From the NCBI RefSeq assembly GCF_007993935.1, contig NZ_VITY01000006.1, forward strand, positions 186,001 through 250,000: 64,000 bases of DNA, written 5' to 3'. Shown here in pieces: positions 16,408-20,782 of this stretch (position 1 is its first letter; every line of letters begins with the position of its first letter). A program made the translations under genes and the position numbers. The DNA comes from Bradyrhizobium macuxiense. GTDB lineage: Bacteria; Pseudomonadota; Alphaproteobacteria; Rhizobiales; Xanthobacteraceae. A model generated the notes under the pieces. The model saw only the letters and a program-made list of their open reading frames with translations. It searched no databases and was not told the DNA's origin.

Positions 16408-17340
16408 TTAACCCCACGGCCCGCGTTGGCCTGACGATCCGCCCCACGGGCTCCGCGGCGGGTAGCTCGCACCAGCCGGGCGCGGCGCGGTCTGGGTGCC
16501 GAGCTCGGCGGCGAGCTGCTGCAGCGCGGCGATGCGGTTCGCGGTCGAGGGATGGGTGGCGAACAGATTGTCGACGCCGTGGCCCGACAGCGGGTTGATG
16601 ATGAACATGTGCGCGGTGGCCGGATTGCGCTCGGCTTCCATGTTCGGCACCTGATGCGCCGAATTCTCGATCTTCGCGAGCGCAGACGCCAGCCACATCG
16701 GCTGACCGACGATGCGCGCGCCATAATTGTCGGCGGCGTATTCGCGGGTGCGGCTGATCGCCATCTGCACCAGCATGGCGCCGAGCGGCGCCAGGATCAT
16801 CATCGCGATCGAGCCTATGATGCCGGGGCCGTTGTTGTTACGGTTGCCGCCGAAGAACATGCCGAACTGCGCCAGCATCGAGATCGCGCCGGCGATCGTC
16901 GCCGTGATCGTCATGGTCAGCGTGTCGTGATGCTTGATATGCGCAAGCTCGTGCGCGATCACGCCGGCGAGCTCCTCGCGGCTGAGCTGCTGCATCAACC
17001 CCGTAGTGACGGCAACCGCAGCGTTCTCCGGATTGCGGCCAGTCGCGAACGCATTGGGCTGCGCCTCGTCCATCACGAACACGCGCGGCATCGGGAGCGC
17101 CGCGCGCTGCGCGAGCTCGGCGACGAGATTGTAAAGGTCCGGCGCCGAGCGCGCGTCGACCTGATGGGCGCCGTACATCGACAGCACCATGCGATCGGAA
17201 TTCCAGTAGGTGAACAGGTTTGTCGCAGCCGCGACGATCAGCGCGATCACGGCGCCGGTGCCGCCGCCGATCAGATAGCCGACGCCCATGAACAGCGCGG
17301 TGAGGCCGGCAAGCAGGAGCGCGGTACGAAAATAGTTCAT
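16408..17340 (-). CDS. htpX: Zinc metalloprotease HtpX
   Basis: The 310-residue inner-membrane protein has two N-terminal hydrophobic segments ([35 protein letters not shown]), the zinc motif HELAH (from [14 protein letters not shown]), and two further hydrophobic segments. The third zinc ligand region is [11 protein letters not shown]. HtpX is an M48-family protease that removes misfolded membrane proteins alongside FtsH. The C-terminus is Pro/Gly rich. The ATG at 17340 has CAGGGAACCACG before it. The gene looks monocistronic. Confidence 0.93.
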
Positions 17341-17478
17341 CGTGGTTCCCTGACGGCAGGCGGAATGCTGCCACAATCGACGCCGCTGAGGTAGGGATTT
17401 TGCCGCCGACGCCGCAAGAGGAACCCGTGCGTCGCAGCGCCGCGGCGCGGATTAACGATTGGTCATGTGCGGCGATCC

Positions 17479-17594: not shown

Positions 17595-19247
17595 CTACTC
17601 CGCCGGCACCTGCGCGAGCCGTGTCCGCCGCTCGCGCAGCGCAACCCGCAGCATGCGGGCGAGCTGGGCCCGGCTGTAGGGCTTTCCGAGGAACAGGATG
17701 CCCTGCTCGAGCTTGCCGTCCTGGTCGATGGCGTTCTCGGTGTAGCCCGATGTGAACAGCACGCGCAGCCCGGGGCGGCGCCGCTCGGCCTCGGTGGCAA
17801 GCTCGCGCCCGTTCATCGCGCCGGGCATGATGACGTCGGTGAACAGGAGGTCAACCGGCGCGCCGCTATCGAGCACGGCGAGCGCCTCGGCACCGCTATT
17901 GGCCGACAGCGTGGTGTAGCCGAGGCTCTCGATCTGGGTCAGCACGTAGGAGCGCACCAGCCTGTCGTCCTCGACGACGAGCACGATCTCTTGCGCGCCG
18001 CGCGCCTCCGGCTGCCGCGGCTCGGGCACCGCGGCCGGCGAGACCGCCGCCGCGCGCGGCAGATAGAGCATGACCCTGGTGCCGCGGCCGAGCTCGCTGT
18101 CGAGCACGATGTGCCCGTTCGACTGCTTGACGAAGCCGTAGACCATGCTGAGACCCAGCCCAGTGCCCTTGCCGACGTCCTTGGTGGTGAAGAACGGCTC
18201 GAACACCTTGGCGAGATCGGCTTCCGCGATGCCTTGGCCGTTGTCGATCAGCGCGATCGCAATGTAATCGCCGGCGGCGAGCCCGTCATGGCCGTGCACA
18301 TCAGACGGCTTGAGCTCGGCGGTGCGGGTCTCGATCCGCAGCTGGCCGCCCTTCGGCATCGCGTCGCGCGCGTTCAGCGCGAGATTGATGATCGCGGTGA
18401 CCAGCTGGTTGGAATCGACCAGCGCGCGCGGCAGATCGGGCATCGGGTGAAAATCGATATCGACATGATCGCCGATGGTCGGTCGCAGCAGCTCGATGGT
18501 GTCGACCATCAACGCGTTGACGTCGACGTCGCTCGGCTGCAGCGGCTGCTTGCGCGCGAAGGCGAGCAGATGCCGCGTCAGCGATGCGCCGCGCTCGGCG
18601 GCGTCGCGGATCAGGGCGGTGATCTCGGTGAGCTGGCGGTTGTGGGTGACCGCCTCGGCCAGGATGTCGATGGTCCCGGTGATGACGGTGAGGATGTTGT
18701 TGAAGTCGTGCGCGATGCCGCCGGTGAGCTGGCCGACCGCTTCCATCTTCTGCGCCTGGCGGATCTTGTTCTCATTGACCTCGGCCTCGCGGAAACGCTC
18801 GAGCAGGAATTCCGAGTGCTGGCGCTGCCGTTCCTCCTCGGCGAGCGCGATATGCGCCTCGCGCAGTTGCGCCTCGGTCGGGATCGCCAGGATCTTCGGG
18901 ATCAGCGGCCACAGCAGCACCGCGGTGAAGATCGAGGCGATTGCGGTCAGCGCCTTGAGCAGGCCTTCGAGACCGTAGATCGGCACCCACAGCGTGTAGA
19001 TCGAGAACACATGGGTGAGACCGCAGGCCAGGATGAAGGCGGCGAACGGCCAAGCCATCCAGCCGAACTGGAAGTCGCGCCGCTTGGAGACGAGGATCGC
19101 CAGCGCAAACGGGATCGAAAAATACGAAGCGGCAATGATGGCGTCTGAAATCACATGCAGCCAGATCAGCTCGGGCTCCCACAACAGGCAGATGCCGTGT
19201 GGCGAAAATGTCGACGAATCCAACAGACGCTCGAGAAAGCTCCACAT
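17595..19247 (-). CDS. Hybrid histidine kinase with ethylene-receptor-like membrane sensor
   Basis: The 550-residue protein has three transmembrane helices (~residues 28-115), then a coiled linker, a HisKA domain with the phospho-acceptor in GGIAHDFNN (His180), an HATPase domain (N box [10 protein letters not shown] boxes DNGQGI and GKGTGLGLS) and a C-terminal receiver with acceptor Asp in [10 protein letters not shown]. The sensor matches plant ETR1 at its ethylene/copper-site residues with a constant offset of ten: Asp35, Tyr42, Ile45, Pro46, Ile72, Cys75 and His79 (ACGLTHVF). Unlike ETR1 there is no GAF domain. The ATG at 19247 was chosen over an upstream GTG (19280) because CCCGGAGGGACCC precedes it. 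Ligand binding is inferred, not shown. Confidence 0.88.
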
Positions 19248-19435
19248 GGGTCCCTCCGGGCGCGATCGATCCGCCGACACCCCTGCCCGCGAATCATCGG
19301 CCGATCATGGCGGCGGCACTTCAACCTGCCTTAGCCCAATTGGTCCAAGGCCCGCACCCCCGTTGTTGCCCGGTGTCAGCCTGGTGTATGCAGATCGGGC
19401 CTGAAATCCCCCTTTTTCCCCAGCCGGTGACATCG

Positions 19436-20782
19436 ATGCCAGCATCTTCCCTCCGCGCCCCGATCATGATCGCAGCGATCGCGGGGGCGCTGGCGCTCTC
19501 CTCGCTCGGTCAGGCGCAGCAGTTGCTGCCCAACCCCGCGGGGCCCGCGCCAGTCAGGCCGCGCCCGCCGGCGGCGGCCTCACCCAGGGCTGCGTCCTGC
19601 CACAACGGGCAAAACTTCGATCGCTTCCTCGCCGAGCTGAAGCAGAAGGCGGTCGCCGCCGGCGTCTCGCAGCGCACGATCGCTGAGGCCGCGCCGTACC
19701 TGGTCTACGACCAGGGCATCGTCAACCGCGACCGCGGCCAGCGCGTGTTCGGGCAGATATTCACCCAGTTCGCCGGCCGCATGGCCGCGAATTATCGCAT
19801 GCAGCAGGGCCAGCAATACATCCGGACCTATGCGGCCGCGTTCGCGCGTGCCGAGAAGGAGTATGGCGTGCCGCCGGCTGTCATCGCCGCGTTCTGGGGG
19901 CTGGAGAGCGATTTCGGCGCCCAGATGGGCAATCTGCCGACGCTGAAATCGCTGGTGTCGCTGGCCTATGACTGCCGCCGCTCGGAGATGTTCCAGGGCG
20001 AGACCATCGCGGCGCTGAAGATCATCGAGCGCGGCGACCTGACGCCCGACGAGATGATCGGCTCATGGGCCGGCGAACTCGGGCAGACGCAATTCCTGCC
20101 GACGCACTATTTCAACTATGCCGTCGACTATGACGGCGACGGCCATCGCAATCTGCTCGCGAGCGGTCCCGACGTGATCGGCTCGACCGCGAACTACATC
20201 GCCAACGGATTGAAGTGGCGGCGCGGCGAGCCGTGGCTGCAGGAGGTGCGCGTGCCGCAGGCCGCGAATTTTCCGTGGGACCAGGCCGACCTCACCGTCA
20301 AGCTGCCGCGCTCGAAATGGGTTGCGCTCGGCGTGACTCTGACCGACGGCAAGGCGCTGCCAAGTGACGAGCTTCCGGCCTCGCTGCTGCTGCCGATGGG
20401 CCGCATGGGTCCAGCGTTCCTCGCTTATCCGAATTTCGCCGCCTACACCGAGTGGAATAACTCGCTGATCTACTCGACCACCGCCGGTTATCTCGCCGGC
20501 CGCATCGCGGGCGCACCGCCGATGCAGCGGCCGCACGCCCCGGTCGCGCAGCTGCCGTTTGGCGAGATCAAGGAGCTGCAGGGGCTCTTGGCGCGCGCCG
20601 GCTACGACGTCGGCAAGATCGACGGCGTGATGGGCCAAGCGAGCCGCAGCGCGGTGAAGGCGATGCAGATGAAATACGGCCTGCCTGCGGATTCCTGGCC
20701 GACCGCGGAGCTGCTCGCGCGGATGCGCGGCGGCGGTCGCACCCAGCCGGCCGCGGACGCCGCGATGCCGGGGATGCGGTAG
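19436..20782 (+). CDS. Lytic murein transglycosylase (MltB family) with peptidoglycan-binding domain
   Basis: The 448-residue product has a signal peptide (APIMIAAIAGALALSSLGQAQ), a proline-rich segment, then the SLT-type catalytic domain with the glutamate in FWGLESDFG and the following GELGQTQFLPTHY. A C-terminal peptidoglycan-binding domain begins at EIKELQGLLARAGYDVGKID. It cleaves glycan strands in the periplasm, forming 1,6-anhydro ends. The ATG at 19436 was chosen because it begins the signal peptide; 19466 is an alternative. The gene is divergent from the hybrid kinase gene, whose start lies ~190 bases away. Confidence 0.9.
   Translation: MPASSLRAPIMIAAIAGALALSSLGQAQQLLPNPAGPAPVRPRPPAAASPRAASCHNGQNFDRFLAELKQKAVAAGVSQRTIAEAAPYLVYDQGIVNRDRGQRVFGQIFTQFAGRMAANYRMQQGQQYIRTYAAAFARAEKEYGVPPAVIAAFWGLESDFGAQMGNLPTLKSLVSLAYDCRRSEMFQGETIAALKIIERGDLTPDEMIGSWAGELGQTQFLPTHYFNYAVDYDGDGHRNLLASGPDVIGSTANYIANGLKWRRGEPWLQEVRVPQAANFPWDQADLTVKLPRSKWVALGVTLTDGKALPSDELPASLLLPMGRMGPAFLAYPNFAAYTEWNNSLIYSTTAGYLAGRIAGAPPMQRPHAPVAQLPFGEIKELQGLLARAGYDVGKIDGVMGQASRSAVKAMQMKYGLPADSWPTAELLARMRGGGRTQPAADAAMPGMR

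Follow-up and report, generated by a model that had tools for sequence, protein, structure and literature searches.

We found that a gene of Bradyrhizobium macuxiense encodes a hybrid sensor kinase whose N-terminal membrane domain is of the ethylene-receptor type and carries a complete set of ethylene-site residues. The gene lies in the window, by which we mean the whole 64,000-nucleotide stretch of DNA analysed (contig NZ_VITY01000006.1, positions 186,001 to 250,000). Judged from its sequence and its evolution, the protein is likely an ethylene receptor that depends on Cu(I) and belongs, with SynEtr1 and AzoEtr1, to the bacterial ETR1-N class; it would relay its signal via its own receiver, and it probably lets the bacterium sense ethylene. 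Bacterial sensors of this type are already known, and the window protein is a well-supported further case. The features of the gene are the following:

17595..19247, minus strand: hybrid sensor kinase gene, 550 amino acids, ETR1_N - HisKA - HATPase_c - receiver (open reading frame and Pfam)
19253..19257, minus strand: Shine-Dalgarno-like GGAGG, five bases 5′ of the ATG at 19247 (sequence)
19179..19202, minus strand: PHGxCxxW motif codons, P16 to W23, just N-terminal of helix 1 (55-sequence alignment)
18882..19172, minus strand: three-helix ethylene-binding-type domain, Pfam ETR1_N, residues 26-122 (Pfam, site residues, AlphaFold2)
18546..18734, minus strand: HisKA domain, residues 172-234, with the phospho-acceptor His180 within GGIAHDFNN (Pfam)
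18051..18416, minus strand: HATPase_c domain, residues 278-399, with N292, D335 and G361 present (Pfam)
17649..17984, minus strand: C-terminal receiver, Response_reg residues 422-533, with D427, D471, S500 and K522 present (Pfam)

The hybrid kinase that the sequence-only reading had placed here is thus a real gene with four Pfam domains; it runs on the minus strand, a point that the reading had left unsaid. Because the GGAGG sits five bases before the ATG, we favour the 550-residue form over a 561-residue form starting at GTG. The sensor matches ETR1_N (PF25487) with an E value of 2.2e-37 and a score of 127.7 bits (cut-off 27), and the same model matches in 137 of 195 genomes of the genus and in none of 14 control genomes (places among the matches listed), so the domain is not a chance match. 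AlphaFold2, run on the 55-sequence alignment, predicts long helices at residues 25-55, 62-85 and 91-120 (mean pLDDT 87) and a further helix at 125-149 that points towards the kinase. Together with the Pfam order, these three helices bear out the earlier description of a three-helix domain followed directly by HisKA, HATPase and receiver; Pfam finds neither PAS nor GAF in the stretch that leads to the kinase. The residues expected for histidine kinase output (H180, N292, D335, G361) are all present. Kinase and receiver align best with PRK13557 (NF010076, 393.7 bits) and with a CckA-type model (NF046020, 351 bits), at scores far under the curated cut-offs of 631 and 1000, and these hybrid kinases match the window protein only from residues 152-154 on, behind the sensor. 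Neither the sensor sequence (0 matches in the PDB at E <= 10) nor a fold search of the 150-residue predicted model (0 matches at E <= 0.001) found a relative in the PDB.

Scans for sigma-70-like promoters and terminator-like sequences found nothing at the ends of the kinase gene. A sigma-54 site has been suggested for AzoEtr1. We claim none upstream of the window gene: the whole window holds 20 two-mismatch matches against 26.7 expected, and only two lie between 19248 and 19530, at 19491 and 19512, both on the plus strand.

We then aligned the sensor with the N-terminal sequence of Arabidopsis ETR1, in which Y32 is one of the seven binding residues. Against this reference, D35, Y42, I45, P46, I72, C75 and H79 of the window protein correspond to D25, Y32, I35, P36, I62, C65 and H69 of ETR1, at a constant offset of +10 at all seven, as the earlier reading had stated. 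D25, I35, P36, I62, C65 and H69 are named as ETR1 site residues in the literature (PMC6586836), and alanine scanning of ETR1 is reported to have found seven residues necessary for ethylene binding, which AzoEtr1 has (PMC11819568). In PMC13012798 we found no passage on single ETR1 residues.

To place this site in its family, we took 60 plus nine loci of the genus and 80 loci from a contig scan. They contain 150 frames that match the sensor; 148 of these entered the residue counts, the two frames of L147, whose matches are short, being excluded. These frames fall into several classes: in class A, the window type, the sensor runs straight into the kinase and then the receiver; in class B, a PAS domain separates the sensor from the kinase (for example L030, 637 amino acids from a conserved Met; Pfam); class C has the layout of class A with the ethylene site lost; and class D has no ATPase domain. 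Some frames, for example several from Methylobacterium and Novosphingobium, have no receiver match. Other arrangements were also observed. In a Methylococcaceae locus (L138:4001-6949), ETR1_N, PAS, HisKA, HATPase, Response_reg (two stretches) and Hpt place a whole phosphorelay in one chain. A short frame (L056:4671-5357, minus strand) joins an ETR1_N domain with all seven residues intact to a partial HisKA_2. Two copies are apparently broken, one as a 250-residue frame that stops after the sensor (L115:3968-4717) and one with the sensor match split across two frames (L147:1553-3504).

All 26 window-class rows have the seven residues intact; at least four of these rows come from genomes sampled twice (L083, L085, L086 and L088 repeat L014, L019, L021 and L015). 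In a set of 42 non-redundant site-bearing sequences, whose sensors are less than 80% identical to each other (class C excluded, and the sampling biased to intact sites), D, Y, I, I, C and H never vary, and 40 sequences retain P46. Besides the window, 68 loci of the genus were hand-picked from among the matches listed to span the classes, so that their counts are no frequencies: 52 have all seven residues, 15 are class C and one has Ser for Cys. For relatives from the contig scan, all seven residues are found in 77 of 79 frames, a figure inflated by peptide patterns that themselves hold six of the seven site residues (Y, I and P of helix 1; I, C and H of helix 2); the other two frames have P to A and P to S. 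The ethylene site is kept, yet not absolutely, since natural variants exist (in ETR1 numbering, C65S in L046, P36A in L125 and P36S in L145). The first of these is an otherwise full-length protein of the PAS class (L046:3390-5444, minus strand) in which the metal-ligand Cys has become Ser.

Conservation extends beyond the seven residues. T101, S105 and T108 of helix 3 are invariant in the same 42 sequences and align with T94, S98 and T101 of ETR1. The pocket could in principle serve a small ligand other than ethylene, for example carbon monoxide, a different alkene or some molecule that dissolves in the membrane; the constraint on the pocket residues does not tell which ligand they bind, and the invariant helix-3 residues may shape a different specificity. 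We regard this as decidedly unlikely, given that the bacterial relatives tested biochemically bind ethylene (PMC11819568) and that the helix-3 residues are those of ETR1 itself, where S98 moderately affects ethylene binding (PMC6586836).

The PHGxCxxW motif is a separate matter: P16, H17, G18, C20, L21 and W23 are invariant in 55 aligned sequences, and the motif is missing from the ETR1 sequence used here and from L056. We considered it as part of the copper site and rejected this, as all 15 class C copies still have H17, and 14 of them C20, despite the loss of the site. The full PHGxC is kept in 11 of the 15, and the motif is not tied to the ethylene site.

Next we examined how selection acts on the sensor. 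In class A the median dN/dS is 0.084 for the sensor and 0.138 for both kinase and receiver (105 pairs from 15 of 17 genus loci), and between class A and the PAS class the sensor is 77% identical, the kinase 48% and the receiver 47%. One can imagine that the ethylene-type domain is an inherited membrane anchor and dimeriser that now senses nothing, much as the class C kinase persists with its site lost. This we hold to be very improbable: the class A sensor is more constrained than the kinase and receiver it would merely anchor, and its seven residues are intact throughout the window class.

Class C itself, a sister class of the window type, comprises 15 copies (L050-L055 and L057-L065), all of which have lost the site while the checked kinase residues are intact. 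Y has become F, P has become A and H has become R in 15 of 15, with the signature DF[IT]A[VA]CR, and the Asp and Cys of the ethylene site are retained. H180, N292, D335, G361, D427, D471, S500 and K522 are present in 64 of 64 rows (26 of class A, 15 of class C, 20 of class B and three others, namely L003, L004 and L114, which have intact sites and of which L004 and L114 are identical in the kinase). A tree built from the kinase without the sensor columns (134 rows, quick method, SH-aLRT support only) places class A, class C and these three on one branch of 44 rows with an SH-aLRT of 100. Class C is 81% identical to the three in the kinase and 53% in the sensor, and class A is 64% identical to them in the kinase and 75% in the sensor.

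The median dN/dS of the class C sensor is 0.325 (91 pairs from 14 of the 15 copies), about four times that of class A. Furthermore, 70 columns of the sensor region vary in at most one of 49 site-bearing rows, and 16 of these columns are fully switched in class C, including four of the seven sites (Y42, P46, I72, H79) as well as H31, T101 and T108. The concentration of losses on the seven sites is modest (hypergeometric 0.043, with columns treated as independent) and alone only suggestive; the rate difference is the stronger evidence. Collectively, a slow sensor in class A and a fast one in the site-lost class C support a selected ethylene site, and on a plain reading the site appears to be what selection holds in class A, class C being a kinase released from it.

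The host genome (8.82 Mb in 48 contigs) has nodC (740.6 bits, cut-off 550), nifH (456.8 bits, cut-off 394.35), an ACC deaminase gene, acdS (587.1 bits, cut-off 392), and, among the matches listed, a single ETR1_N match. The earlier reading spoke of a plant-associated type of bacterium, and these genes of the host agree with it; the kinase gene itself is not tied to nodulation or symbiosis. Full-length orthologues (at least 87% identity) occur in 22 of the 195 genus genomes, with one further match at 70%, and nodC (E <= 1e-150) is found in 14 of these 22 against 105 of 195 overall. The gene is thus not confined to nodulating genomes, 8 of the 22 having no nodC match at that threshold. An acdS match (E <= 1e-110) is present in 22 of 22, yet also in 172 of 195 overall, and we rejected a link of the orthologue with either gene across the genus, as the 195-genome counts give no strong one. 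Among the matches listed, the orthologue is the sole ETR1_N match in 21 of its 22 genomes, and G076 has three.

Beyond the genus, at least 585 candidate stretches yielded at least 570 confirmed relatives, of which the best 80 were retained. The closest named sensor relatives within these 80 are 93-99% identical and include Bradyrhizobium oropedii, pachyrhizi, viridifuturi, embrapense and tropiciagri, which we take to be members of the B. elkanii supergroup. Besides Bradyrhizobium, Methylobacterium, sphingomonads, Azospirillum, Caulobacter and Phenylobacterium are among those represented. The relatives are distributed among alphaproteobacteria of soil and water, so they do not by themselves point to a role on plants.

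We also compared gene neighbourhoods at 20 places with open frames of 567-637 amino acids, picked among the matches listed, of which 16 are window-type. Two genes flank the kinase:

16408..17376, minus strand: M48 (HtpX-type) peptidase, downstream neighbour (Pfam), adjoining the orthologue in 14 of 16 loci
19199..20782, plus strand: SLT_2 lytic transglycosylase with a peptidoglycan-binding domain, divergent neighbour (Pfam), in 16 of 16 orthologous loci

The true start of the transglycosylase is probably later than the start of its open reading frame. Five of the 16 orthologous loci come from genomes without nodC, and neither neighbour was found within the 5-6 kb flanks of the four non-window-type loci or of 40 further loci. 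The gene thus appears to be stably established on the chromosome of a single clade rather than to belong to a symbiosis island.

These neighbours bear on a further alternative, in which the protein is a copper or redox sensor that uses its Cu(I) site to follow oxygen, peroxide or the supply of metal and binds ethylene only incidentally. All 26 window-class rows retain both metal ligands (C75 and H79), the M48 peptidase could hint at envelope stress, and relatives are common outside plant-associated bacteria. We nevertheless consider it unlikely. Y42, I45, P46 and I72 are conserved too, beyond the metal ligands, and the seven residues are those needed for ethylene binding by ETR1, while both bacterial relatives tested bind ethylene (PMC11819568). 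The Cu(I) dissociation constant of ETR1, near 1e-15 M, fits a fixed cofactor better than a signal (PMC6586836), and Pfam assigned none of the ten neighbours scanned to a copper-homeostasis family.

The preferred reading is thus a copper-dependent ethylene receptor, and homology with ETR1 suggests how it would work. A homodimer would hold Cu(I) between Cys75 and His79 of helix 2, beside Asp35 of helix 1; in ETR1, the modelled dimer interface has two Cu(I) near C65 and H69, with infrequent D25 contacts (PMC6586836). Ethylene would bind the metal in a pocket of Tyr42, Ile45, Pro46 and Ile72, residues that are present and constrained. The change could then travel from helix 3 through the helix at 125-149 to the dimerisation helix, along the layout seen in the predicted model. 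Ethylene probably lowers autophosphorylation of His180, if the sign is that of the inverse-agonist model that Carlew and colleagues put forward for AzoEtr1 and SynEtr1 because disruption of the receptor gives constitutive ethylene responses (PMC11819568). Phosphate would pass from His180 to Asp471 of the attached receiver. From there it may go on via an unlinked phosphotransfer protein, or back with the receiver as a sink, because no response regulator, receiver or Hpt gene was found by Pfam among the ten neighbours scanned. The output is likely to be attachment, biofilm or metabolism in soil or on roots rather than nodulation only. The earlier suggestion that the protein could sense ethylene or another ligand through copper is accordingly strengthened for ethylene, with membership of an ethylene-binding family, constraint on the seven residues and the faster-evolving site-lost class all pointing that way.

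Ethylene binding has been reported for two bacterial members of the family, SynEtr1 and AzoEtr1 (PMC11819568). AzoEtr1 of Azospirillum brasilense resembles the window protein in its N-terminal ethylene-binding-type domain, its seven residues and its histidine kinase output; its residues 1-130 give saturable ethylene binding by Pichia pastoris cells, and ethylene or disruption of the gene cuts biofilm and root colonisation (PMC11819568). Its host, like ours, is a plant-associated alphaproteobacterium. AzoEtr1 differs in its length of 525 amino acids, in the PAS domain that separates its sensor from its kinase and in overlapping a separate 135-residue response regulator (PMC11819568), whereas the window protein has no PAS, an attached receiver and no regulator gene among the ten neighbours scanned. 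SynEtr1 (slr1212 of Synechocystis) also signals via a kinase (PMC11819568); unlike the window protein, it contains a GAF domain that senses light (PMC7700396), and its signal goes to slr1213, a regulator encoded apart from it. Arabidopsis ETR1 shares the three-helix Cu(I)/ethylene-type domain, the seven residues and a kinase with a C-terminal receiver; it differs in a GAF domain between sensor and kinase and in N-terminal disulphides at residues 4 and 6 (PMC6586836), and signalling by plant receptors is for the most part independent of histidine kinase activity (PMC11819568).

Many proteobacteria have already been predicted to carry such receptors (PMC11819568, PMC7700396), and the output domains of predicted bacterial ethylene receptors vary (PMC7700396). 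Bradyrhizobium is not mentioned in PMC11819568. Among the open-licence papers listed, we found none on a rhizobial ethylene receptor and no binding, metal or phosphorylation datum for a Bradyrhizobium relative; Lacey and Binder 2016 may list Bradyrhizobium.

Variation in output also occurs within the genus. In five genomes (G037, G072, G080, G143 and G158), a frame of 364-396 amino acids combines the sensor with the phospho-accepting helix and a receiver but lacks an ATPase domain. The ATPase-less frames, designated class D, are:

L160:7905-8996
L161:7818-8996
L162:7836-8996
L164:7812-8999
L119:3923-5071
L163:7287-8435, minus strand

For L119 (B. elkanii WSM2783), which has the same sequence as L066 of G037, Pfam gives ETR1_N, HisKA and Response_reg only; the other four frames were read by eye, and by reading the ethylene-site residues are intact. 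The loci are syntenic, the longer aligned flank pieces showing about 88-94% DNA identity in five of five. All five genomes have nodC, and four have no other ETR1_N match among the matches listed. Both the sensor (median dN/dS 0.074, 10 pairs from 5 loci) and, strongly, the accepting helix (0.057, 10 pairs) are constrained. Having no ATPase domain, this version should not phosphorylate itself; it should instead be a phosphotransfer or phosphatase module, or the partner of another kinase.

Taken together, these observations raise the possibility, which we put forward tentatively, that ethylene perception has radiated within one nodulating genus into an intact receptor, a site-lost kinase class and an ATPase-less, ethylene-gated phosphotransfer or phosphatase module. 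If so, the ATPase-less class, with its full site, would act only by taking phosphate from another kinase or by stripping phosphate, a possible new output mode, and the site-lost class C provides natural negative controls. As the PDB searches by sequence and fold found no solved structure of such a domain, the bacterial ethylene-binding domain could also be a structural target. The window gene makes rhizobial ethylene sensing directly testable: because it is the sole ETR1_N match in nearly all genomes that have it (among the matches listed), a single deletion should abolish binding. If the reading is true, the symbiont would both lower host ethylene, through an acdS product that destroys the ethylene precursor, and read it.
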